Below the pieces are notes generated by a model. It ran no database searches. It was not told the DNA's origin and saw nothing but the letters and a program-made list of their open reading frames with translations. Below are positions 46,101-58,467 of a stretch of 64,000 nt of DNA, piece by piece. Position numbers and translations under genes: made by a program. Within the stretch, counting starts at the first letter, position 1; each line of letters begins with the position of its first letter. This DNA comes from Pyrococcus kukulkanii. Its GTDB lineage: Archaea > Methanobacteriota_B > Thermococci > Thermococcales > Thermococcaceae. The DNA lies in contig NZ_JARRIB010000003.1 in NCBI RefSeq assembly GCF_041647995.1, positions 124,001 through 188,000 of the forward strand, read 5' to 3'.

Positions 46101-46577
46101 TCATTTCAAGGAAAGCTCCTCTATGAACTCTTTTGCCCTGAGTATTTTGACCTTTCTTCCATTAAAGCTGTACGTTTTAGTTTTCCTGTCCCTTATCTGG
46201 ATGATATGCTTTGTGTTTTCTGAGATAATGTACTCAGCGTTGGCGGAATACGCAACGTCGAAAAATTTTGCATCATCTGGATCCTTTAGCTTTTCAAGAA
46301 ATTCGTGATTATTGGAAAACTTGGGCTTTGGACTGATAATAGTGCTTTTCCTCTTTACCAAGGTAAGTATCTGGAGGGCCAGAAGTTCCTTTTCTGTTCC
46401 TCCAGCTATCTCCATGAGAACTCGGCTCATCTCTTCGTATATATCCCTGCTGAGGTAATTCTCTACTTTCCCTGTAACGAGGGCCCTTAAAATTCTCCAC
46501 GCTGGAGAACGTTGAGGATTTCTAGATTTAAGCGCACTAACCAAGATAGATGTATCAAGGACTACTCTTATTGCCAT
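46101..46577 (-). CDS. PIN-domain toxin (COG1569-like)
   Basis: A 158 aa predicted ribonuclease with the PIN acidic residues: Asp in 'VVLDTSILVSAL', Glu in 'IYEEMSRVL', and 'DPDDAKFFDVAYSANAEYIISENT'. It would be the toxin of a type II module, cleaving RNA. The ATG lies 1 nt after the stop of the upstream small gene, which is the candidate antitoxin. Confidence 0.78.
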   Translation of the reverse strand: MAIRVVLDTSILVSALKSRNPQRSPAWRILRALVTGKVENYLSRDIYEEMSRVLMEIAGGTEKELLALQILTLVKRKSTIISPKPKFSNNHEFLEKLKDPDDAKFFDVAYSANAEYIISENTKHIIQIRDRKTKTYSFNGRKVKILRAKEFIEELSLK

Positions 46578-46928
46578 TTAAATCACTCCAACATGCTTTA
46601 GCTTGTTCTCGATCCTCTTGAATTTCCTGATATTTCTCCTTGCTTCAATCAAAAGTTCCTCTGTACTCTTGTGAATTTCAGGAGTGCTTTCGGCCTCCTT
46701 AACTGCAAGCTCAAAAAGATCCTCTGGTGATAGATCCTCTGTAGATTTTTCAAGCTCTTCAAGTTTCTTATCCCATTCCTTCCTTTTTCTCAACTCTTCA
46801 AAGAACCATATTATGTCTTCTGGCCTCTCATGGATCTTCTTTGCTAGTTGGACTATCCACTCACTCACTGCCTCTTGTGTCTCCCGCCTTTGAAAAAGCC
46901 TAATAACCTTTTCAACGTCAGATGCCAC
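46578..46928 (-). CDS. Putative antitoxin partner of the PIN toxin
   Basis: A 116 aa, charged, mostly helical protein without a clear domain. The N-terminus 'VASDVEKVIRLFQRRETQEAVSEWIVQLAKK' could be a small helix-turn-helix. GTG 46928 is preceded by GAGGGGT; longer starts are possible. Its position directly ahead of the toxin is the main evidence for the antitoxin role. Confidence 0.6.
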   Translation of the reverse strand: MASDVEKVIRLFQRRETQEAVSEWIVQLAKKIHERPEDIIWFFEELRKRKEWDKKLEELEKSTEDLSPEDLFELAVKEAESTPEIHKSTEELLIEARRNIRKFKRIENKLKHVGVI

Positions 46929-47485
46929 GAGCTTACCCCTCAATTGCACTATTTAAAAAGAGATATAAAATTGTTTCTTGTTCCAAAGTTCCTGAAATAT
47001 GCTGGTTTGATATTTTTCTGTCAGTCTAAGCTAATCATTTATATCTTGCTAGCAAGTCAACATAGCATTTCAAAAGCTTGTGAAGATCGAGAGGGCTGGT
47101 CCTATGTTGGGATCGATACAGGTTGGGGCAATGCTAAATCCATTAGCTTTTTCATTAAGATTGCGTAAGCTATTTATTCCAAAAAAATACCTTAAAGAGA
47201 ATTAGGTGAAAAATGCCAACCGAAATTACTATGGAGGATCTTCCAGCGAGATGATAGCTAGAATGAATAAGCGAGAATTAAATAAGCTAATTAGAGAACT
47301 TATTCTTGAGTCTGAAGCTTCAGTTTGAAGTTAGCCGTGGTTTTGATGTTTCCTTAGCTCCAAAAGAAAACAAATCCAAGAAATCTGTGAGATAATAGAA
47401 GAAAAGTAGAACTTTAGGTCTTGAGTACATTAATTATTATGGGAATATCCGAAGTCATGGTTTCATACCACGTGGGAGGCCATAG
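46929..47485. other. Non-coding/degenerate interval
   Basis: A minus-strand promoter (TATA-like ATTTTATATC near 46968) serves the antitoxin gene. A GTG-started plus-strand frame of 41 codons (47080-47205) and short frames near 47213-47320 resemble scraps of older genes but lack ribosome binding sites and recognisable domains. I see no intact gene. Confidence 0.4.
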
Positions 47486-48745
47486 TTATTTAAGGTTGGC
47501 CCAGCTTTTTATGAGGTTAAGTTTGTCTTTAGAAAAGGCCTTGTTCATTTTTTTGGCGGCTTTTCGGTAGATAGGGAGGGGCATTTCATAGTATGTTATG
47601 TTCTTTGTCTTATGTTCTTTAAGAATACCTTGGTCGAGTAGCGTTTGAATGAGATTATCTGTAAGTTTCTCATTAAGTTTTATTGGGCTATTTTTTTATT
47701 TTTGAAGCAGTGAACAATAGTGGCTTGCCATTTTTTCTTCACTCATCACTTTGTAAGCTCTTGCTATTTTTCGTGAGAGTGTATCAGAAATTTTTATCTT
47801 GATGCCGTCTGCGAGGGTCTTAGCAACGGCAAACATGGCAATATGTTGGAGCTCCTCTTTGGCAATTTCAATCATGTTTATTTCAAGTTTGCTTTTCTCT
47901 GAGAATATTTCTCCAACTTTATTAATCTTTTGGCAGTATTTTAATAACGCCCTTGGTATTCCACTAATTTCCATTATGGCACCTTTAACAAGTTCCTTAA
48001 ATTCATCATCTTTGAGTTTCTGCTTAGAGATAACCCCTTTTTGTGCGAGACACATTAAAAGCAACTCTGTTGACTTTTCGGGAGAAAGTGGAGAGACATT
48101 AATAACTTTCACTTCTCCAAGGAAAGCTTGTTTTAGAGCTTTCATTTCAAATAAGTTTGTTGCACTTGCAACTGATCCGCTAATAATAAACCAAGGCATT
48201 TCTTTTGGATCTTCAAGGGTTTGGATAACTGTTCTTAAAATCTTTGCAAATTTCGTTATTAGAGGTCCTAAGCATTGTACCTCATCAAAAAAGATCCTTG
48301 TCTTAGGTTTTAAAGACAGGAGAACATCCTCCAGTGTTAAACTTTCACACATTTTTCTGACGGTGGTTTTTTGATATCCTTTTATAAGTTTTGAAAAAAG
48401 TCCTGGAATTACCTTGAATGCTCCTCCAATTTCCCCCTCAGTTCTTGTGGATTCAATAATTTGAATAACCTTTCCATAAAGAGGAGAGGAATGTTTAATT
48501 AAATTATGAGTTAGTGCTTGTGTGCAGATTTTTGTGGCAATTTCTTGAAACACTTTATTCTCGGTTTCGTAATTAATGTTTGTTTTTTCTTCAAGTCCAA
48601 ATTTTTCAAGGTCTATCTAAATTTGTGTGTTGGGATCAATGCTATTAAGGGCCTTGTATAGATCATTAAATTCTTTATCTCGGCCAATAAGACACTCCTT
48701 TTTGTAGCTGAATTTATTGAGAGAATAATCACATGCACTTGCCAT
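47486..48745 (-). pseudogene. COG1672-type AAA ATPase, P-loop lost and two stops
   Basis: Reading one frame on the minus strand from ATG 48745 (AGGTGA upstream) gives 'LIGRDKEFNDLYKALNSIDPNTQI', a TAG, then the ATPase core 'TRIFFDEVQCLG' (Walker B), 'WFIISGSVASATNL' (sensor) and, after an in-frame TAA at 47696-47698, a winged-helix tail ('LNEKLTDNLIQTLLDQGIL'). The Walker A region that should follow 'NSIDPNTQI' is missing. Both stops keep frame, so decay by substitution and a deletion is likely. Confidence 0.7.
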
Positions 48746-49251
48746 AATGTCACCTGGGGTAATGACCCACCTTAGTATTATTTAAAGATTTTAGCCTCTA
48801 ATGTTAACTAAATATCAAATTTCCAAAAAATTTTTGGGATAACATTCAAAAATTATTAAAAAATTTGATAATTTTACATTGATTTTTACTACTTTGAAAC
48901 CGGAATTTTTGGGGAATTATCTTAACGTATTTAACGGAATAACTCAAGAGTTTATTAGTTCGGGCCATATTATGTTGTTATAATGGCTTCTCCATAGAAA
49001 TGGTCGGTAGGACAGCTTATATAAAAGCATACCTCAGCGAGTGGTCTAAGTTTTCAGATGCTATTTTTGATATTTGGTGAAATGTCAAAAATTTATTAAC
49101 AATTAATACATAACGACGACAAAGTAGGGGAGCTACTTGAGTTCCTGTAGAATGAGGAATAATTTAACGATGTGGAATGATGTATTTCGAGTTTGAGGGC
49201 TTGATTGAATATTTCTCCTTCCTAAGGACTTGAGCTTCCTCTCACCAACCT
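48746..49251. other. AT-rich interval with promoters
   Basis: About 500 nt, strongly A/T-rich. It holds the ATPase pseudogene promoter (CTTTAAATAATAC on the minus strand near 48787) and an imperfect dyad TGGGT-CATT-ACCCCA at 48756-48770. A plus-strand TATA-like CTTATATAAAAG lies near 49017. No coding frame is supported. Confidence 0.4.
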
Positions 49252-49632
49252 TCAATCCAGAAATTGGCTGGGTGTCTTGTAAACCTCTGAAAATGCTTTC
49301 CTTGATTCAGAGACTATCATCCTCAACCTTTCAGACATGTCTTGGAGATCTTTTATTTCCTTTCCTTCTTTTGACAACATCTCATCGAGATTATCTTTCA
49401 CTGAAAGCTTCCTTACCAAAATTGAAAAATTTGGGATATTTACTTTATATTCCCCTATGTAAGCCTGTAGAATAGCCCTATCAAAATTTGACAACGAATC
49501 AATATTGTATTCCTCTGTATCTTGAAATGGTTCTATTCCAAGCAATCTTCTGGGCCAGCTTCTCATATGACGGCCCCAAGTCCTCGAATATCTGCTATAT
49601 TTAGGAGAAAATCTATACTGGTAATCTTCCAT
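49252..49632 (-). CDS. Hypothetical helical protein
   Basis: 126 aa, unrecognised. An Arg/Tyr-rich N-terminus is followed by a helical segment. The last part ('ERLRMIVSESRKAFSEVY') resembles a stretch of the large coiled-coil protein at 54088 ('LRKIVRESGEAFHQIH'), suggesting a common domain. It could be a partial gene. It is divergent from the decayed transglutaminase-like gene with 25 nt between them. Confidence 0.4.
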   Translation of the reverse strand: MEDYQYRFSPKYSRYSRTWGRHMRSWPRRLLGIEPFQDTEEYNIDSLSNFDRAILQAYIGEYKVNIPNFSILVRKLSVKDNLDEMLSKEGKEIKDLQDMSERLRMIVSESRKAFSEVYKTPSQFLD

Positions 49633-49657
49633 AAAATTTATGCTGTTTTCTTTAAAT

Positions 49658-50276
49658 ATGATAATTCAGCTTTTTCTTAGAATTCCTGAGGAAGATGTGG
49701 ACTTGTCTATTGCCAATAATTATCACGAGAAGATCAAAAAAGTTGATGAAGACCTCTTCCTGATAAAAGTTCGGGATACTCCTAAGAAGATAATTGAACT
49801 TCTTGAAAGACCGTTGGATTTCAAGATTACCTTGCCGGAACTCGAGGGAGTGAAACATTTAATCGAAACTTACGAGGATCTATTTATCTTTTTGAAAGAT
49901 TACATTGACGCTAAGGTTAAAAACGAGCATTCTCGGGGGAGACTCTCCATTCTGGGAATATTACAATCCGAGATGGGACAACCAATGTGGAATTCGAAAC
50001 AAGATGTTCGCGAAATATCTCAAGGATCTCGGACTTGAAGTCCGGATGATTGGAGGCATATTTTTGACTAATCTCGATAAAACCCCGAGAAGTGTGGAGG
50101 CGACTCACGCATGGGTTGAGGTTAAAATAAATGACAAATGGGTTGAACTGGATGCTTCGGGAAAACCTGTATCCCACTTGCTGCGTCGTTCGACTGAACT
50201 CTCTTGAGAGGTGGGATAGATTCGAGAGATTACTGGCTGAAAGGGAAAGTTTTCGCGGAGATACTGTAAAATAATT
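49658..50276 (+). pseudogene. Transglutaminase-like gene, frameshifted
   Basis: The frame opens from ATG 49658 ('MIIQLFLRIPEEDV') and shifts near 49915-49935. The second frame holds a transglutaminase-like core: Cys in 'WDNQCGIRNKMFAKYLKDLG', His in 'EATHAWVEVKI' and Asp in 'KWVELDASG'. After a stop at 50205-50207 another frame continues ('RGGIDSRDYWLKGKVFAEIL'). All three catalytic residues survive but the frame does not. Confidence 0.6.
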
Positions 50277-50339
50277 TCATTCTTGTACAACGTCGAAAAG
50301 AAAGATAATTATTAGCTATTGAAAGCAATTTCAAGTTAT

Positions 50340-50597
50340 ATGGCGGAGGAGTCCGTTTACAGGGCACTTAACATCGGGCTCGGATACTCTTCTCGAGAGT
50401 TCTATCCCGAGCTAAACATTGATATCATAGGGTATCTTTCCATAGCTCCAAGTCTGAAGAGTCCCTCGAGCATCGACAACAATTTATCCAACTTAGAGAG
50501 AATTTTGAGGGAAATTAGTGATACAGATTTTCTGAAAGCGAAGTTTAGGAGTGCAGGATATGAGTGGTGGTTCTATGATGGCTGTGATGATGAGTAA
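50340..50597 (+). CDS. Hypothetical short protein, probably remnant
   Basis: An 85-codon frame from ATG 50340 ('MAEESVYRALNIGLGYSSRE') without a ribosome binding site. No family recognised. It lies between two degenerate transglutaminase-like segments and may belong to the same decayed gene set. Confidence 0.3.
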   Translation: MAEESVYRALNIGLGYSSREFYPELNIDIIGYLSIAPSLKSPSSIDNNLSNLERILREISDTDFLKAKFRSAGYEWWFYDGCDDE

Positions 50598-51012
50598 ATT
50601 TTTGTCCCTCAGAAAATATACTCGCCCGAATCCTGAATTTATTTCTTATCTTCGAGAGAACTATGATAAAGTAGATCTGAAATCTATTTGGAGGATTATC
50701 AGCTCCGAATTCTCTTATGATTCGGATATTGCGCATTGTGACAAAATTTACTCTGCTTCTGAGTTAATGAAAGCCCGGAAAAGAGGAGGATGCTCTTCAT
50801 ATTCAATTCTCTCTTCATCTATTTTGAGATCTTTTGGCTATCCTACAGCGATTCTCGTTTGTTTATAGCTTGATACGATATTTTACAACGAGGAATTTGT
50901 CAACAAAATGGCTCATAAGCTTGGGGAGGAACACTTAGAAAAGATTAAGAGGAAATGTTTTATTGGCGGGCTATGTGCTATTAAGACGGTTCGATATTTA
51001 GTTTTTCCATAA
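50587..51012 (+). pseudogene. Second transglutaminase-like fragment
   Basis: 'RKRGGCSSYSILSSSILRSFGYPTAIL' matches the Cys-centred core helix of transglutaminase-like enzymes. An in-frame TAG at 50866-50868 interrupts the frame, which continues to 51012 ('FYNEEFVNKMAHKLGEEHLEKI'). The downstream His/Asp residues of the triad are not found. Decayed. Confidence 0.5.
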
Positions 51013-51091
51013 AAATATATTTTATTTAATGGTATTGCCTCAAAATAATCTTTATACTTAGAAATATAGTATACAAAAGTCATAGCTTAGC

Positions 51092-51340
51092 TTATATGTA
51101 GTACTCTCTTACTATTCCAAAGCGCCTTTCGACTTCTCTATCAAACCAATAGCCACTCCCATAACGTATATACCTATTTGGATCCAGCCCATAATTTTCT
51201 TTTAATCTCCTACAAGTGGCATTCCATAATTGTTTTCTTGCATCCCAAACGTCCATATCATCTGATAAGAACTTCCATTTGTCTAAGACCTTATATAGGT
51301 TATACAGCTCAGTACCTCTATATGAATCAATATCTATCAA
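51092..51340 (-). CDS. Small conserved-looking protein downstream of phosphotransferase
   Basis: 82 aa, unrecognised; rich in Tyr, Trp, Arg and Asp ('NYGLDPNRYIRYGSGYWFDREVERRFG'). Its start overlaps the stop of the PEP-synthase-like gene by 4 nt, a sign of translational coupling. It could be a partner or acceptor of that enzyme. Confidence 0.55.
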   Translation of the reverse strand: MIDIDSYRGTELYNLYKVLDKWKFLSDDMDVWDARKQLWNATCRRLKENYGLDPNRYIRYGSGYWFDREVERRFGIVREYYI

Positions 51341-53040
51341 GATTTTTTAGGATCTCCATATTCTCTCGCAAGATCTCTTAGCCTTCTCATCCCATATCCA
51401 AGAGGGATTAGCGTATTCGCTATCCCGAAATATTTAGAAGATAAATCTACTAAGTTTAGCACCTCTAAATATAACTCTAACGAATTTTCGTCCTTAGCTT
51501 GTTTGTATATTTCGTAAGCCTTAGAAATTGCTCTCTGAGAATCTTTCATGATCTGGTAGAGCTTTTTATCTAATTTCTTAGGGTCTCTCACAAGATTCTT
51601 GGTCTCGTCGACAAGTTCTTTCAGACCTTTATGAACGAGAAAACCATATGTCCACTCTACGTAAAGATAGTGTTTATCTGGATGACCTTCAATTGCATTG
51701 AACTTAGAAAGAATATTATTCTTTATAGCTTTTGGAGTGTCTGGATGGAAATACAATATGTTTGCTCCTGAAATCTTCTCAAGCGCGAAGATTTTCTCGG
51801 GATAAGCTACAACGTATATCTTATCCGCCTTGGAGAGATTTTCCATTTTCCATCCTTCGAGATCTATTACCATGTCGTGAGCTTCTTCTAGTAGATAAGA
51901 CTTAACAGGTCTCCCTGGATAATAAACTACTCCCTCATCTGCATCTACATAGATTTTCATTCCATCATATACAACACTTAAAATTCCGGTAGCTCCAACT
52001 ACCGCTGGAATACCAAATTCTCTTGCAACTATAGCTGAATGAGATGTTATTGTTCCGACCTCATTTACTATTGCTCCGGCCTTTAACATATCTGGCATGT
52101 AATCGTTGTAAGTGGTTTTGGATACCAGCACTTCTCCGGGTTTTAATTTATCTAAATCATTTTTATCTCTGATTATTCTTGCAATTCCGATATATTTTCC
52201 TGTTCCGGTGGGAATTCCTACTATTTTAGACCAATCCTTCGGAACGTTAAATTTGATCTCTTTTCTTCTTTTTGGAGTTAGAGGTCTCGCCTGGAATATA
52301 TAGATTATACCTTTCTTGATTCCAAACTCTACATCCACCGGATATCCAAAGAGCTTTTCTATCTCAAGCGTTTTTCGGGCGATCTCTGTTATGATTATAT
52401 CGTCTAACGACTCCTCTCTAATGACTCTGTTAGATATTTTTAGGGAGTTTCTATCGACTCTATATATGTTTGTTTTTGCTTTCCCTGAGACAACATTCTC
52501 TCCCAATCCTTTTGCAATTTCAATAATCACTTCATTTTTATCAGAAAAGACATCTTTCGAAAAAGATACTCCCGCAAAATCTGTGTTTATAAATTCTTGA
52601 ACTACTACTGCCATTTCTACTTCTCTCTTTATGTCCAAGAATCTCATATATGCCTTTACCCTTTCAGATTCAACAGATTCATATATTTTTTCTATAGCTA
52701 TCCTTAGCTCTTCCAAGCTATTTATGGGAAATATTGAAACAAATTGTCCGGCGAAGCTATGGGATATGGAATCTTCTATCGTCGCAGAGCTTCTTGCAAT
52801 AAGAGGAAATGTTATATTCAAGTACTTTATTGCATCTCCTACTTCCTCAATAACTTCATCTAGAGAATCTTTTCTTTTGAACTGTCTGTATGCGAGAGTG
52901 TTTATTATGAATCCTTTTGGAACATTAAATCCTTGAGAATATAACCTTTGAAGGGATGACCCTTTTCCACCCACTAATTCCAAGCGAGAATTTTCATGAA
53001 AGAAGTTTATATACCTAAACTTTTTAGAAGGGCTGGACAT
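51337..53040 (-). CDS. PEP-synthase-like phosphotransferase without PEP-binding barrel
   Basis: A 567 aa protein. Residues 1-260 form a PPDK/PEP-synthase ATP-grasp domain ('LVGGKGSSLQRLYSQGFNVPKGF', 'IARSSATIEDSISHSFAGQF', 'GLGENVVSG', 'DVEFGIKKGIIYIFQARPLTP'). Residues about 270-375 form the swivelling domain with the phospho-His in 'GTITSHSAIVAREFGIPAVVG' (His334). The C-terminal ~170 aa is a helical domain I cannot assign; the TIM barrel that binds PEP is absent. As in rifampicin phosphotransferase, the enzyme may phosphorylate another acceptor. It overlaps both neighbours. Confidence 0.82.
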   Translation of the reverse strand: MSSPSKKFRYINFFHENSRLELVGGKGSSLQRLYSQGFNVPKGFIINTLAYRQFKRKDSLDEVIEEVGDAIKYLNITFPLIARSSATIEDSISHSFAGQFVSIFPINSLEELRIAIEKIYESVESERVKAYMRFLDIKREVEMAVVVQEFINTDFAGVSFSKDVFSDKNEVIIEIAKGLGENVVSGKAKTNIYRVDRNSLKISNRVIREESLDDIIITEIARKTLEIEKLFGYPVDVEFGIKKGIIYIFQARPLTPKRRKEIKFNVPKDWSKIVGIPTGTGKYIGIARIIRDKNDLDKLKPGEVLVSKTTYNDYMPDMLKAGAIVNEVGTITSHSAIVAREFGIPAVVGATGILSVVYDGMKIYVDADEGVVYYPGRPVKSYLLEEAHDMVIDLEGWKMENLSKADKIYVVAYPEKIFALEKISGANILYFHPDTPKAIKNNILSKFNAIEGHPDKHYLYVEWTYGFLVHKGLKELVDETKNLVRDPKKLDKKLYQIMKDSQRAISKAYEIYKQAKDENSLELYLEVLNLVDLSSKYFGIANTLIPLGYGMRRLRDLAREYGDPKKS

Positions 53041-53363
53041 CCCAAATAATTGGATTTTATGTATATAAGCTTATTTAAGCCCTCTTTGATATCACCTTCT
53101 AAGTCTCGTAGCTTATCTTCAAACTCCTTCTTTAGAGAAGAGATTTCCTTCCTTATTTTCTTGACATCTCTTTCTTCCTCCTTTATCTCCTTATCAAGAT
53201 ACTTTGCATCCTTCTTAAGAGCTTTTACTTCATGATATGCTCTCCCAATGACTCTCTCTGCTTTTATAGATACTCTCCCTACTCCTATAGCTCCATAATA
53301 CAACAGTGCAATCATATTTCCCACAAAGAATCCCCAGAATAGACTCTGAACGCTAAGGGACAT
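53007..53363 (-). CDS. Membrane coiled-coil protein, short paralogue of the 606 aa protein
   Basis: Sequence from 'MSLSVQSLFWGFFVGNMIALLYYG' aligns residue for residue with residues ~64-130 of the product at 54088 ('MPFSVQSLFWGFFAGNMIALLYYG'), followed by a Glu/Lys coiled coil; it ends after about 118 aa. The start is unsure: ATG 53363 with a TATA-like CTTAAACT at the right distance, or an earlier frame from 53429. Its 3' end overlaps the phosphotransferase start by 34 nt. Confidence 0.6.
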   Translation of the reverse strand: MSLSVQSLFWGFFVGNMIALLYYGAIGVGRVSIKAERVIGRAYHEVKALKKDAKYLDKEIKEEERDVKKIRKEISSLKKEFEDKLRDLEGDIKEGLNKLIYIKSNYLGCPALLKSLGI

Positions 53364-53412
53364 GTTTGCCAGAATAGTAAAGTTTAAGATATTACTACTC
53401 CATAATAATAAC

Positions 53413-54084
53413 ATGGGGTTGGATTCCATAATCAGAAGAAGACTGAGTCTTCTTTATCCAAAATATGAGAAAAGTGATAAGTTTTGGAAAATTGAAAGAA
53501 GAGCTCAGGATTTTAATAGAGAGACAAGATATGATGTTCCAAAATTTGATGAGTATATGAGAAAGTATATTGATGAGATCGTTGATAGTACTGGAGTTTT
53601 AGACAGGTATACCCTTCCTTATGTTACAATCGCAGCCGCTGTTTATGAGTTGTATAAAAGAGATCCTCATTACTTCGATTTCGTTAAGCCCGGAAACGTT
53701 ACTGAGGAGGCTTACAAGACCTTTGATTACCTATTGAACCAAGGAAAGGCTAAGGAAGTTTACCAGAGGTTGTCCGAGTTCTTGGAGAAGCCATTGAGCC
53801 AAGTCCCAGAGTTCCAGAGAATAGTCGAGTTCATCGACAAATATGGATTCAGACCTTATCGAGAGGATGTAAATGGGAATGATTCTAAGGTTAAATTTAC
53901 GCTTTCAATTATCAAGGATAATGACATTATTTCAGCTGGGATTGGAGTATATTCCAGTGGAGATAAGTATAAGTTTGAAGAACTTAATACTAAAGTTGAA
54001 AAAGAGCTTCTTCCAGCCTTTGCGAGAGTAATAGCAAAAAAGACAGAAGAATATTTGAATAGGCTTGGCTACCAAGAAGATTAA
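53413..54084 (+). CDS. Hypothetical protein
   Basis: A 223 aa soluble protein of unknown family. It is mostly helical ('YTLPYVTIAAAVYELYKRDPHYF', 'EFQRIVEFIDKYGFRPYREDV') with a beta-rich C-terminal part. Start at ATG 53413 after a TATA-like GTTTAAGATA. It is divergent from the short membrane protein with a shared promoter region, and its 3' end lies 3 nt from the convergent 606 aa gene. Confidence 0.55.
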   Translation: MGLDSIIRRRLSLLYPKYEKSDKFWKIERRAQDFNRETRYDVPKFDEYMRKYIDEIVDSTGVLDRYTLPYVTIAAAVYELYKRDPHYFDFVKPGNVTEEAYKTFDYLLNQGKAKEVYQRLSEFLEKPLSQVPEFQRIVEFIDKYGFRPYREDVNGNDSKVKFTLSIIKDNDIISAGIGVYSSGDKYKFEELNTKVEKELLPAFARVIAKKTEEYLNRLGYQED

Positions 54085-54087
54085 TTT

Positions 54088-55908
54088 TTATCTTCGAGCC
54101 ACGTTTCTCTCCACGGCTTGACTCATTGAATAAAGTTCTCTAAGTCTCTGGTTGATGACTAACATCGCCTTCCTAAAGCGATAACCTTCTCTAATGGATA
54201 GATCTCTTAGAGTCTTCAGAATCTTGTGAGCAACGTCTCTTAGATGGTTAATCTCGCTAAGTTCTCCTTTTATGTTGACATTTTTAATCTTCTTTAGCAA
54301 GTCTCTAATCCCTTCCTCGATGCTCTTGAAGCTCTCGGAGATTCCCTCTAAGCTCTTGATGGAATTCTTGAGAGGATCGATCTTCGAGATTATCTTATTG
54401 CTAATTCCCTCGTTCTTCAAATCTTTCTCGAGCCTTGAAATGTCCCTTCTTACGTCTTCAAGATCCTCTTCTTGCCTTCTCAATATATCTCCAATTCTCA
54501 CCAAGTGTCCTTCCCACTGCTCGAGCTTCTTCAATTCAACTTCAACGGAATTCAGGGCAGATAACAATCCCTGAAATTCTCCATCCATATCTCTCCAGAA
54601 CTCTTCGACTTCTCTCTCCAAGTCACTTAAAGATTCCTCTATGATCTCCATTGCGTTGTTCACTCCCTTTCCAAAGGCTTCAACTACTTTGTGCGGATAA
54701 ACTTCATTCGCCATCTCTACAGCTTTAACATCCTTGAAAGCTATCAACTGCTTCCTTATCTTCTCAAGATGCTTCTTAACGGCATTGGATAATCTAACAG
54801 AGTACTTGTTCTTCTTCCTCATCTCTTCGAGATATTTTTCTAACCTCTCTATCTTACTCTCGTCGAACTTCAACCCATTCACCATTCGGGACATCGTGTG
54901 TATCTGATGGAAAGCTTCTCCCGACTCTCTAACTATTTTTCTCAGCTCCTGAGAGATCTCTTTTAACTCGCCTCCACCTCTCCCAATTTTTCTCAAGGTT
55001 TCCACGAGGTGTTTATCATGGGTAATCCTCTCCTCAAACCCCAATAGATTCTCTTCAACGGCATCGTACTCTTTTACTATCCTCTCGAACTCTCCAGAGA
55101 AGGTCTCGAAGTCCTTTAGGTAGGCCTTTAAATTACCTAAGGCTTCTTCAGTCTTTATCAGGGCTTTCTCGAGGTCAGAATCAACGTTTTTCATCTCATC
55201 AACCATTCTCTCAATGTCCCTGAGAACTTTCTCTGTCTGTTCTTTCAGACTCTCAAGAGGTTTATCTGCCTTCTCCTTTAACTCCTTTGAGAGAGCCTTT
55301 AATAACTCTCTTTTCTTGTTTGGCCTTAGCATGTAGAGAATCGATCCATACTTCTTCATGAACTCTTGAATGAGCCTCTTAGATTCCTCTATATAGCTTA
55401 AGACTTCTTTAACATCCATCTCTTCTACCTTTAAGTCTTTGTTTAGCTTCTCCTCGAGTTTTTTGATCCTCTTCTCAAACTCCTTCCTTGCCTCCTCCAT
55501 CTCCCTGTGAATCTCCTTCAGATCCTTCAGCTCCTCCTTTTCTTCTTTTTCTAATCTCTTCTCTTCTTTTCTAAGAGCTTTTACTTCATGATAAGCCCTC
55601 CCAACTAATCTTCCAGCCTTCAAACCAATCTTTCCAACTCCAATGAATCCGTAGTATAATAAAGCGATCATATTTCCCGCGAAGAAACCCCAAAACAAAC
55701 TTTGGACGCTAAAGGGCATGTTCTTCGATGCTTGCATCCAGAGATCTTGCAACTCGAAGAGCATTCCGAGGGTTATCATCGACAGGGCTATCGCCGTTAA
55801 AGACCCTCCGACCTTCGATTTATAATGCTCGTAGACCAATCTCGGGAGAGAGAATCCGAGTATGAACGATCCAAGGGTGAACAATAAGTTAGCCGTCGGA
55901 GATGCCAT
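54088..55908 (-). CDS. Large membrane-anchored coiled-coil protein
   Basis: 606 aa. Three N-terminal hydrophobic segments ('LLFTLGSFILGFSLPRLV', 'LTAIALSMITLGMLF', 'GFFAGNMIALLYYGFIGVG') are followed by about 480 aa of heptad-rich helices. The architecture resembles a receptor or tether but no HAMP or signalling motif is recognised. It has a truncated paralogue at 53007, indicating duplication. It might assemble into a filament or surround the phosphotransferase system. Function unknown. Confidence 0.75.
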   Translation of the reverse strand: MASPTANLLFTLGSFILGFSLPRLVYEHYKSKVGGSLTAIALSMITLGMLFELQDLWMQASKNMPFSVQSLFWGFFAGNMIALLYYGFIGVGKIGLKAGRLVGRAYHEVKALRKEEKRLEKEEKEELKDLKEIHREMEEARKEFEKRIKKLEEKLNKDLKVEEMDVKEVLSYIEESKRLIQEFMKKYGSILYMLRPNKKRELLKALSKELKEKADKPLESLKEQTEKVLRDIERMVDEMKNVDSDLEKALIKTEEALGNLKAYLKDFETFSGEFERIVKEYDAVEENLLGFEERITHDKHLVETLRKIGRGGGELKEISQELRKIVRESGEAFHQIHTMSRMVNGLKFDESKIERLEKYLEEMRKKNKYSVRLSNAVKKHLEKIRKQLIAFKDVKAVEMANEVYPHKVVEAFGKGVNNAMEIIEESLSDLEREVEEFWRDMDGEFQGLLSALNSVEVELKKLEQWEGHLVRIGDILRRQEEDLEDVRRDISRLEKDLKNEGISNKIISKIDPLKNSIKSLEGISESFKSIEEGIRDLLKKIKNVNIKGELSEINHLRDVAHKILKTLRDLSIREGYRFRKAMLVINQRLRELYSMSQAVERNVARR

Positions 55909-55931
55909 TCCTATTATTTCTCCCCCGGTGG

Positions 55932-56030
55932 TTATTTACTTTTCCTTCGAAGAATCGAGACGAAGAATCCCTTAACCATAACTCTCAAGAACGATAGGAA
56001 ACCGTGGAAAAAGAGCTCGGAGAATCCCAT
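55932..56030 (-). CDS. Possible small amphipathic peptide
   Basis: A 32 aa frame ('MGFSELFFHGFLSFLRVM') ending just ahead of the coiled-coil gene. It is hydrophobic with a basic end ('RRKSK'). No good ribosome binding site. Listed only because position and composition are consistent; it may be chance. Confidence 0.2.
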   Translation of the reverse strand: MGFSELFFHGFLSFLRVMVKGFFVSILRRKSK

Positions 56031-56157
56031 AATACTACTCAACGCCGAAGAGAAGAAAGAGAAAGAGCTCTGATTTTAGCTTTATCCACGAGTTATGCCA
56101 TCTAACGTGAAAAAGTTTGATGAAATGGTAAGAGATTAGCGGAAGGGCTCTCTAAGC

Positions 56158-56700
56158 TCACCTTATCTCCCTGTACCTGAAAGTTGGCAGAGGTTTCTTG
56201 AAGATCACGAAGAACAGGCCGTGGAATAAGTAGGTAAAGATCATCTGGAACGGAGCCAGAGCCCTCAACCACCTCGGGAGATCTGACTGGGCGAACCTTC
56301 TATCAAAAGTGTAAGACTTTATCGCGAAGGTTATCACATTCCTCTTCCCGACCTTCTTCTTCATCCTGTATCCGAAGTCGAAGTCCTCCCCAGGATACAA
56401 CGCCTTAAACTCCACGAAATCCTCCCTCCTGATGGCAAAAACATTTGTTAGAGTCAGGGGAGCGTTCAAAATATTATTAAAGAGTATGAAGAAGGGCCAT
56501 CCTATTAGGTCTCCGAGCAAGAAGTTTCCAAACCTCACGAACGATTTGGGATAGAACTTGGGAAGGTGAATCAGCTTGGGATATACGTAGGACAAGTCTC
56601 TCCTTCTCTCGATTATCTTAGCTAACTTGATCATATCTTCAGCCTTTAACCAGCTATCTGCATCGAAGAAAAACCATGACCTCTCCAGAGGATAGTTCAT
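56158..56700 (-). pseudogene. Glycosyltransferase family 2, 5' truncated
   Basis: The frame starts inside a GT2 domain: 'WFFFDADSWLKAEDMIKLAKI' is the DXD-type nucleotide-sugar motif, followed by 'FAIRREDFVEFKALYPGEDFDFGYRMKK' (acceptor/ED motif). The N-terminal ~90 aa that bind UDP-sugar are missing upstream of 56700, where the next PIN gene follows closely. The C-terminal part contains hydrophobic segments. A truncation by a rearrangement is likely. Confidence 0.65.
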
Positions 56701-56719
56701 AACCTAGTTAAACAAAAGC

Positions 56720-57118
56720 TTAGAGCCACTCGATCTTGACTTTGTCTTTAATGTTCTTGAATTCTTCATCCCCGGTTAAAAGGGTTGCATCGAGGTCTAT
56801 TGCTGTTGCAGTTGTGAAGGCGTTTGCATGGCTTAGTTTGTGGAAGGCTTTTATTCTGCCGGCAATTGGGGAGAGGTGCTCATCCGCGGGGGTGAATAGG
56901 ATTGGGCTTTTCAGCAGGTTGGCTATGATGAAGTCAGCAACGTCAACATCCTTTCTGCGTGCTATGATGTAGTAGATCTCGCCAAGATTCACAATGTTCA
57001 TGTAAACCTTTACTTCTCCATTTCTAGCTTTATTTAGCAGTTCTTCAACGCGCTTTGCATCCTTTTCGTTGAGGAGGTAAGTTAGTATAGCGTAACTGTC
57101 AAGCACTACTCTCTCCAT
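56720..57118 (-). CDS. VapC-type PIN toxin
   Basis: A 132 aa PIN ribonuclease: Asp in 'VVLDSYAILTYLL', Glu in 'NLGEIYYII', and 'LSHANAFTTATAIDLDATLLTGDEEFKNI' with the metal-binding Asp pair. It overlaps the antitoxin gene by 13 nt. Typical of VapC toxins that cleave tRNA or rRNA. Confidence 0.88.
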   Translation of the reverse strand: MERVVLDSYAILTYLLNEKDAKRVEELLNKARNGEVKVYMNIVNLGEIYYIIARRKDVDVADFIIANLLKSPILFTPADEHLSPIAGRIKAFHKLSHANAFTTATAIDLDATLLTGDEEFKNIKDKVKIEWL

Positions 57119-57351
57119 TTTTTGGCCTCTAGTTCTTCTTCCTCCTTCCTTACCTCCTCCATAATTTCTTTCAAAGGTTTTTCAAGCTTTAATATTCCCT
57201 TGAGGTCAATGTCCCTTTTTATTGGAACTATCACTATCTCGTTTCCAAAGTCAAGAATCTCAAGCTCATCCCCTTCCCTAATCCCAAACTTCTCGCGAAT
57301 AACTTTTGATATGACTATCTGACCCTTCGAAGAAACTTTAACAGTCACCAT
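57106..57351 (-). CDS. AbrB/SpoVT-type antitoxin (VapB-like)
   Basis: An 81 aa protein whose N-terminal swapped-hairpin DNA-binding domain reads 'VKVSSKGQIVISKVIREKFGIREGDELEILD'. The C-terminal Glu/Lys helix would neutralise the adjacent PIN toxin. Together they form a type II toxin-antitoxin pair, probably autoregulated through the AbrB domain. Confidence 0.87.
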   Translation of the reverse strand: MVTVKVSSKGQIVISKVIREKFGIREGDELEILDFGNEIVIVPIKRDIDLKGILKLEKPLKEIMEEVRKEEEELEAKKWRE

Positions 57352-57411
57352 CTTACATTCACTAAGTTAGTCTTACCAACAGAGCATAAAAATATTTTCA
57401 ACTCAGCATAT

Positions 57412-58467
57412 TCAAAACCCCCTAATTACTTTCTCAACAACGGGATCTACTATCTTGTAAGTTTTCTTCCCGTTCTGGAGTTCTGCTTTTATCCAGCTCA
57501 TCTTCTCAAGGTTCTTAAGTAAGGCCGAAAGCCTGGCGTTTGTTATGGGGCCATATTTAACTTCAACGTACTCCTTTATCTTTGACCACCGGTTCATGCC
57601 CAAAGATATTGCCTTTAGTATCTCTAAGTACCTCTCACTCCTTTTCTCCAGCTCTGCTAGCTCCGATCTTATTAGGGATTGAGCACTCCGAAAGGTTCTC
57701 TCCAACGCTTTTCTATGGTCTTTAGTGTGCACGTAATGGTAGCCGTATTCGACCAGCCATCCTGGGATCCCGTCTAAGTTCTCGACGGCTTCTTCAAGAT
57801 GCTCCTCTGGAACATCGATTTTTACTTCCCTAAAGCCCTCCTTCAAGAATTCAACTGAAAGATCCCTGGGGAAGGGCTCCAGTGTTATCTCGTTGTATAT
57901 CCTTCCAAAGAGAGGAGCCTTAGAGTCTTCAAATCCTAGGAAGTCATGCAACAAACCCACCTCGGATCCTGAAAAGAGGAACCTAAGCCACTCATGATTG
58001 TCATAGGAATACGCAACGGCTAGTAGAAAGTCCTCGCCACCCCTCGCCCCATAAAATCTGAAGTATTGGGCCTCATCGAAGGCTAAAACAACTACTCTCT
58101 TCCTTTTCTTCCCGTATGAGTTTAATACATCAAAGATATCGGGTAAATCAATTGATATTGGCTCAAGCTTAATTCCAGGAAGGCTTATCTCCTTTATTTT
58201 TACCCTCCTAATAGTGCCCAGGAGTTGAGTTTTGAGTTTCTCATCTGAAATTCTACCTCTCCTCATGGCCCTTCTTACGTCGATGTAGATCCCTACTACA
58301 TCACTCTCGTTCAGCGAAACCCTGATTATTGAAGACTTCCCTGTCCTCCTTATTCCGAGTAATACCGTTATGGGATAGTTAACTAGTGAATGCATGAGCT
58401 CGGAGAGCTCTTTTTCTCTGTCAAACAGTTCTTCCCTTTTCTCTTTGGGCCTCGGATCGAACAACAA
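57412..58467 (-). CDS. Archaeal AAA ATPase (COG1672 type)
   Basis: A 351 aa ATPase: Walker A GIRRTGKSS, Walker B 'VVVLAFDEAQYF', sensor 'FLFSGSEVGLL' and a C-terminal winged helix ('KYGPITNARLSALLKNLEKMSWI'). The start is TTG 58467 or TTG 58464. The start region carries tandem dyads (58468-58504) under a TATA (TTATTAAG near 58510). Closes the island before pbaB. Function unknown. Confidence 0.78.
   Translation of the reverse strand: MLFDPRPKEKREELFDREKELSELMHSLVNYPITVLLGIRRTGKSSIIRVSLNESDVVGIYIDVRRAMRRGRISDEKLKTQLLGTIRRVKIKEISLPGIKLEPISIDLPDIFDVLNSYGKKRKRVVVLAFDEAQYFRFYGARGGEDFLLAVAYSYDNHEWLRFLFSGSEVGLLHDFLGFEDSKAPLFGRIYNEITLEPFPRDLSVEFLKEGFREVKIDVPEEHLEEAVENLDGIPGWLVEYGYHYVHTKDHRKALERTFRSAQSLIRSELAELEKRSERYLEILKAISLGMNRWSKIKEYVEVKYGPITNARLSALLKNLEKMSWIKAELQNGKKTYKIVDPVVEKVIRGF

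Follow-up and report, generated by a model that had tools for sequence, protein, structure and literature searches.

A barrel-less PEP-synthase-like gene and its overlapping reading frames in an AT-rich island of Pyrococcus kukulkanii

This locus raises the question of whether a PEP-synthase-like phosphotransferase gene that carries no PEP barrel, and that overlaps another reading frame at each end, is the center of a translationally coupled three-gene operon forming a new system, as a preliminary description had proposed, or an enzyme gene with accidental neighbors. The gene lies in a window of 64,000 nt from P. kukulkanii, by which we mean the whole stretch of DNA analyzed. Our verdict is that it encodes a real, mildly unusual enzyme and is not part of a coupled new system. 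Barrel-less relatives of PEP synthase are of interest as a known route to new phosphotransferases, exemplified by RPH, HpeHI and VadK.

Domains, active-site residues and C-terminal part of the 567-aa protein

The ORF list contains an intact reading frame of 567 aa at positions 51337-53040 on the minus strand. Pfam recognized two domains in its product and no other, PPDK_N (E 7e-47) followed by the PEP-utilizers swivel domain (E 2e-20), which is the order seen in PEP synthase (PpsA) up to residue 374. The ATP-grasp domain spans residues 18-260 (52261-52989, minus strand) and carries K26, R83, S102, E238, Q250 and R252; besides Pfam, it is backed by the alignment with PEP synthase from the PDB and by columns that are invariant with PpsA and with a family of barrel-less relatives of about 498 aa described below. 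The swivel phospho-His domain covers residues 270-374 (51919-52233, minus strand), and residue 374 is also where homology to the 498-aa family HMM stops. It includes the predicted phosphorylated histidine, His334 (codon at 52039-52041, minus strand), within TSHSAIVARE. In an alignment with a Thermococcales PpsA and nine relatives, K26, R83, E238, Q250, R252 and H334 are invariant.

The PEP/pyruvate-binding barrel that sets PpsA apart from this protein (PEP-utilisers_C) was absent according to Pfam, and comparison of the PpsA barrel with the C-terminal part of the protein gave an hhalign probability of 0.2% and a barrel HMM score of -2.4 bits. A degenerate barrel was considered for a look-alike near residues 405-440, KIYVVAYPEKIFALEKISGANI versus KVNVSMPEVAERAAATGADGV of PpsA, and was rejected, as neither of these profile comparisons supported it. 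Pfam, the ORF and the alignment therefore bear out the preliminary description of an ATP-grasp domain and a swivel with His334 in a protein lacking the barrel.

By sequence the closest PDB relatives are PEP synthases, and by fold they are PEP synthase, RPH and PPDK. NCBIfam scores are higher for PEP synthase (E 5e-70) than for PPDK; the PEP synthase cut-offs are nevertheless missed (236.5 bits versus 598 for NF005057, and 219.5 versus 739.75 for TIGR01418), as is that of the RPH equivalog (151.7 bits versus 999). The same genome encodes a separate full-length PpsA (G000:C7, 820-aa frame), so that the 567-aa gene would be dispensable for PEP synthesis.

In PEP synthase the TxxGGxxxH loop positions the catalytic histidine, and in Thermococcales PpsA this loop reads TDEGGRTCH or TDEGGRTSH. 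The corresponding loop before His334 reads NEVGTITSH and has thus lost one glycine and the leading Thr/Ser; the GG of the loop is lost in the 498-aa family as well. As a G-rich loop preceding the catalytic histidine, T/SxxGGxxxH is found in PEP synthase, RPH and HpeH (PMC12167813).

AlphaFold2 modeled the ATP-grasp and swivel domains well, with blocks mostly at pLDDT 75-95. The C-terminal part, of 193 residues (375-567; 51340-51918, minus strand), fared differently: most of residues 377-474 fell below pLDDT 50, while three helices were predicted between residues 469 and 561 in a block at about 63-80, the best-modeled element being a long helical hairpin. The helical domain of about 170 aa previously ascribed to this region therefore holds for the last ~95 residues (469-561) and not for the stretch in front of them. 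Codon bias is typical of a coding frame in both halves of the gene, the tail included, so that the tail does not look like non-coding DNA that is simply read through.

This C-terminal part is an orphan. We found no relative of residues 375-567 in Pfam, NCBIfam, PHROG or the PDB, so the comparison with known domains suggested in the preliminary description returned no match, and there was none in plasmids or phages either. Among 115 genomes of the phylum it is absent from every one other than its own. Matches of the C-terminal part in the PDB were designed or repeat helical proteins and were discarded as coiled-coil noise.

Proposed chemistry and barrel-less relatives

We consider it probable that the 567-aa protein is a single-chain, ATP-dependent dikinase of the PEP synthase/PPDK/RPH superfamily which would act through His334 on an acceptor other than pyruvate. 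With the barrel absent and the ATP-grasp and phospho-His residues kept, a different acceptor is a sensible reading, and to this extent the earlier proposal that barrel loss implies a new acceptor stands. The mechanism that we propose builds on the chemistry of PEP synthase, PPDK, RPH and HpeHI (PMC4844700, PMC12167813), and by analogy with these enzymes we infer a phosphorylation, a transfer step and a non-pyruvate acceptor. ATP bound in the ATP-grasp domain would pyrophosphorylate His334 of the swivel; release of AMP and Pi would leave the beta-phosphate on the histidine, and the swivel would carry this phosphate to an acceptor that is bound by the C-terminal part (375-567) or docks there.

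Precedents for barrel-less or non-pyruvate dikinases are available in RPH (PMC4844700), HpeHI (PMC12167813) and VadK (PMC13400623). RPH has an ATP-grasp domain and a phospho-His swivel, its barrel being replaced by a new acceptor domain, and is a Foldseek match to the 567-aa protein (E 2e-18); however, its acceptor domain lies mid-protein and its swivel is C-terminal, whereas the swivel of the 567-aa protein is central, ending at residue 374 of 567. HpeHI applies two-step dikinase chemistry to a non-pyruvate acceptor, and HpeI is likewise matched by Foldseek, but HpeHI, phenylphosphate synthase PpsAB and CreHI, which share this chemistry, each consist of two separate polypeptides and bind their substrate with a domain related to the one in RPH.

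VadK (Rv1127c), from Mycobacterium tuberculosis, is a PPDK that lacks the pyruvate domain; it phosphorylates itself on His422 and has enzymes of the methylcitrate cycle as interaction partners (PMC13400623). It resembles the 567-aa protein in having a PPDK-type ATP domain and a His domain and in having lost the pyruvate/PEP-binding domain; compared by description, it derives from PPDK, whereas the 567-aa protein is PEP-synthase-like. The autophosphorylation and protein interactions of VadK, together with the long helical hairpin predicted as the best-modeled C-terminal element, would fit a protein histidine kinase whose acceptor is another protein and whose C-terminal helices serve as a docking arm and not as a small-molecule site. 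We regard this as unlikely, given that no conserved neighbor points to a protein partner and that no C-terminal extension is described for VadK to compare with the 193-residue tail.

The nearest proteins to the 567-aa protein are the PEP-synthase-like proteins of the ~498-aa barrel-less family, which occurs in Thermococcales and was present in 14 other genomes among the 115 of the phylum that were searched. Eight of its copies are intact, and several others are broken or partial (G066, G103, G075, G112). The family HMM matches residues 20-374 of the 567-aa protein with E 1e-72 and ends there. Both have an ATP-grasp domain followed by the swivel, no barrel and an N-terminal region shorter than that of PpsA, but identity is only 30-38% and the 498-aa proteins carry their own, unrelated C-terminal domain of about 130 aa with five predicted helices. 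A C-terminal domain common to the two was considered on account of BLAST extensions reaching residue 486 and was rejected (hhalign 0.2%, HMM about 1 bit). AlphaFold modeled one family member poorly, C-terminal helices excepted. In an unrooted tree the branch of the 567-aa protein measured 2.67 changes per site, too long to place it relative to the 498-aa family and PpsA.

With this family in the same order, and with VadK (PMC13400623), barrel loss is not unique to the 567-aa gene. Two unrelated C-terminal domains are thus found on one ATP-grasp/swivel core within one archaeal order, and both variants are concrete proteins in which further uses of dikinase chemistry could be probed. A domain-wide scan of the genome contigs recovered the 498-aa family alone. 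In three other archaeal phyla (573 genomes) no more than four matches reached E 1e-36, all in open frames of 764-834 aa, longer than the 567-aa protein; none spans the tail, and the alignments stop at residues 374-388, where the swivel ends or shortly after.

The HMM match over residues 20-374 and the neighborhoods of the 498-aa genes, which include genes for radical-SAM, DUF4932 and M1 peptidase proteins and for ABC exporters, would be consistent with a phosphotransferase that tailors a peptide or a small molecule, as the 498-aa family may do. For the 567-aa protein there is in our opinion only a small chance of this, as it has neither the C-terminal domain nor the neighborhood of that family (radical-SAM, peptidase and exporter genes, or purQ/purL), and no radical-SAM or exporter gene was recognized in the island in which it lies. 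In a broader and speculative version, which we hold with little confidence, Thermococcales would possess a group of barrel-less dikinases with an altered His loop and interchangeable C-terminal acceptor domains. One branch would act on a peptide, or on a product derived from one, within the radical-SAM/peptidase/exporter cassettes, and the 567-aa gene would be another branch with its own acceptor domain.

The 498-aa genes deserve mention in their own right. They are patchily distributed, some copies being broken, and often adjoin radical-SAM genes, genes for DUF4932 and M1 metallopeptidases, and ABC exporter genes (L062:7998-10702, L066/L079:3758-6462, L082:2630-9919, L083:599-3162), in cassettes that look like peptide-modification and export units with a dikinase. 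Repeatedly the 498-aa gene lies in the purine operon, separating purQ from purL (L063, L077, L078, L082), and adjoins differing transporters or peptidases, as if this spot were an insertion hotspot. The family and its cassettes look a more promising lead than the 567-aa gene.

Overlapping reading frames and the AT-rich island

The overlaps of the 567-aa gene are real: the ORF list shows 34 nt (53007-53040) shared with a 140-aa ORF upstream and 4 nt (51337-51340) with an 82-aa ORF downstream. The nature of the two flanking ORFs, in contrast, does not sustain their reading as partner genes. The 140-aa ORF (53007-53429, minus strand) is what is left of the 5' part of a second membrane coiled-coil gene copy, as its homology (53366-53070) shows: over about 96 residues it shares 59-62% identity with residues 63-157 of a 606-aa coiled-coil protein encoded intact nearby (54088-55908, minus strand), and likewise with a 367-aa protein in G001. 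This homology begins at an internal NMSLSV, the residues before it being antisense to the start of a 240-aa ORF, and ceases after residue ~121, where the PEP-like gene begins. Using the G001 protein as a tblastn query, we found a frameshifted middle remnant of the same second copy at 49223-49458 (minus strand), which matches residues 235-312 (E 2e-9, in two adjacent HSPs in different frames). The gap between the two stretches amounts to 3.6 kb here versus about 360 bp in G001.

The simplest reading of these positions is that a segment with the PEP-like gene, the 82-aa ORF and a broken transglutaminase-like gene sits inside the ruined second coiled-coil gene, the 34-nt overlap being most simply read as the scar. 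Just where the coiled-coil homology ends, a TATA-like box, CTTATATA (53062-53069, minus strand), lies about 25 nt upstream of the ATG of the 567-aa gene; its function is suggested by the sequence, and it is plausible that the gene has its own promoter here and a transcript without a leader.

The 82-aa ORF (51092-51340, minus strand), with a TTG start, is a doubtful gene. Apart from weak, short matches, a search of 61 genomes gave no relative, and the best foreign match (E 0.0015) extends over 33 residues and contains a stop; family searches gave nothing above noise, and its codon score was no better than that of its next frame. A GGAG precedes the TTG, and on this account it may still be a real gene.

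A translationally coupled three-gene system, with the small protein or the membrane coiled coil as acceptor or partner, could draw on the two overlaps and on this GGAG. We find it very improbable, as the upstream ORF is a truncated paralogue with its other piece 3.6 kb away, the 567-aa gene is preceded by its own TATA-like box, and the 82-aa ORF shows no relatives and little coding signal. Moreover, the 567-aa, 140-aa and 82-aa genes were never found together in any other genome examined, which speaks against the operon put forward in the preliminary description. The locus rather illustrates that an insertion into a gene can produce overlapping frames that look like an 'operon'.

The intact 606-aa gene forms a convergent pair with the 240-aa gene (53362-54084, plus strand). 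Such pairs of a membrane-anchored coiled-coil protein and a ~240-aa protein were seen in two species of the genus (53362-55908; L060:8669-10929), and since the pair in G001 occurs without any PEP-like gene, it is a separate unit.

The genes of this locus are part of an AT-rich island of ~9 kb (47184-56134) with a GC content of 0.34-0.42 versus about 0.45 around it. In G003, whose flanks are 94-98% identical, the sequences at positions 47183 and 56135 adjoin and share a single base; the island is missing from G004 too. The island was therefore acquired here or lost from the relatives. The same-species genome G061 matched none of the region, flanks included, and is thus uninformative on the island. 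No target-site duplication or terminal repeats were found at the ends of the island or of the insert. A phage or plasmid origin was considered and rejected, there being no close relative in phages or plasmids, and so was a defense system: PADLOC did not match the 567-aa protein, and what it returned for the other proteins was coiled-coil noise.

The 567-aa gene was most likely acquired horizontally. Our best explanation, which we think probably correct, is that it arrived with the AT-rich island and interrupts, or has replaced part of, the coiled-coil gene, outside any conserved operon.

Several ORFs of the island are broken, among them a transglutaminase-like region of several overlapping ORFs at 49640-50868 (plus strand; Transglut_core match to one piece, E 7.5e-6), which appears frameshifted. 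The altered His loop and these decaying surroundings, to which the half of the tail without a model can be added as a point against an active dikinase, keep alive the reading that the protein is a dead or dying relative of PEP synthase that has lost its barrel, gained an unrelated tail and is drifting in a decaying island. The broken coiled-coil and transglutaminase-like genes, the absence of the island from the near relative G003 and a tail without relative anywhere searched would all suit such decay, and no close orthologue of the 567-aa gene was found that could show purifying selection. Yet the 567 codons are uninterrupted, the ATP-site residues are all kept and coding bias extends into the tail, although neighboring ORFs of the island are broken. 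We therefore judge decay rather unlikely, and retain a functional dikinase as the preferred reading.

The island falls within a variable spot (46101-57418) that differs in content among the close genomes G000, G003 and G004, and that is bounded by a toxin-antitoxin-like gene pair (46.1-46.9 kb) and an ATPase gene (57.4 kb). At 47696-48553 (minus strand) there is a 285-aa AAA_14-like ORF without evident P-loop, which is probably a truncated ATPase.
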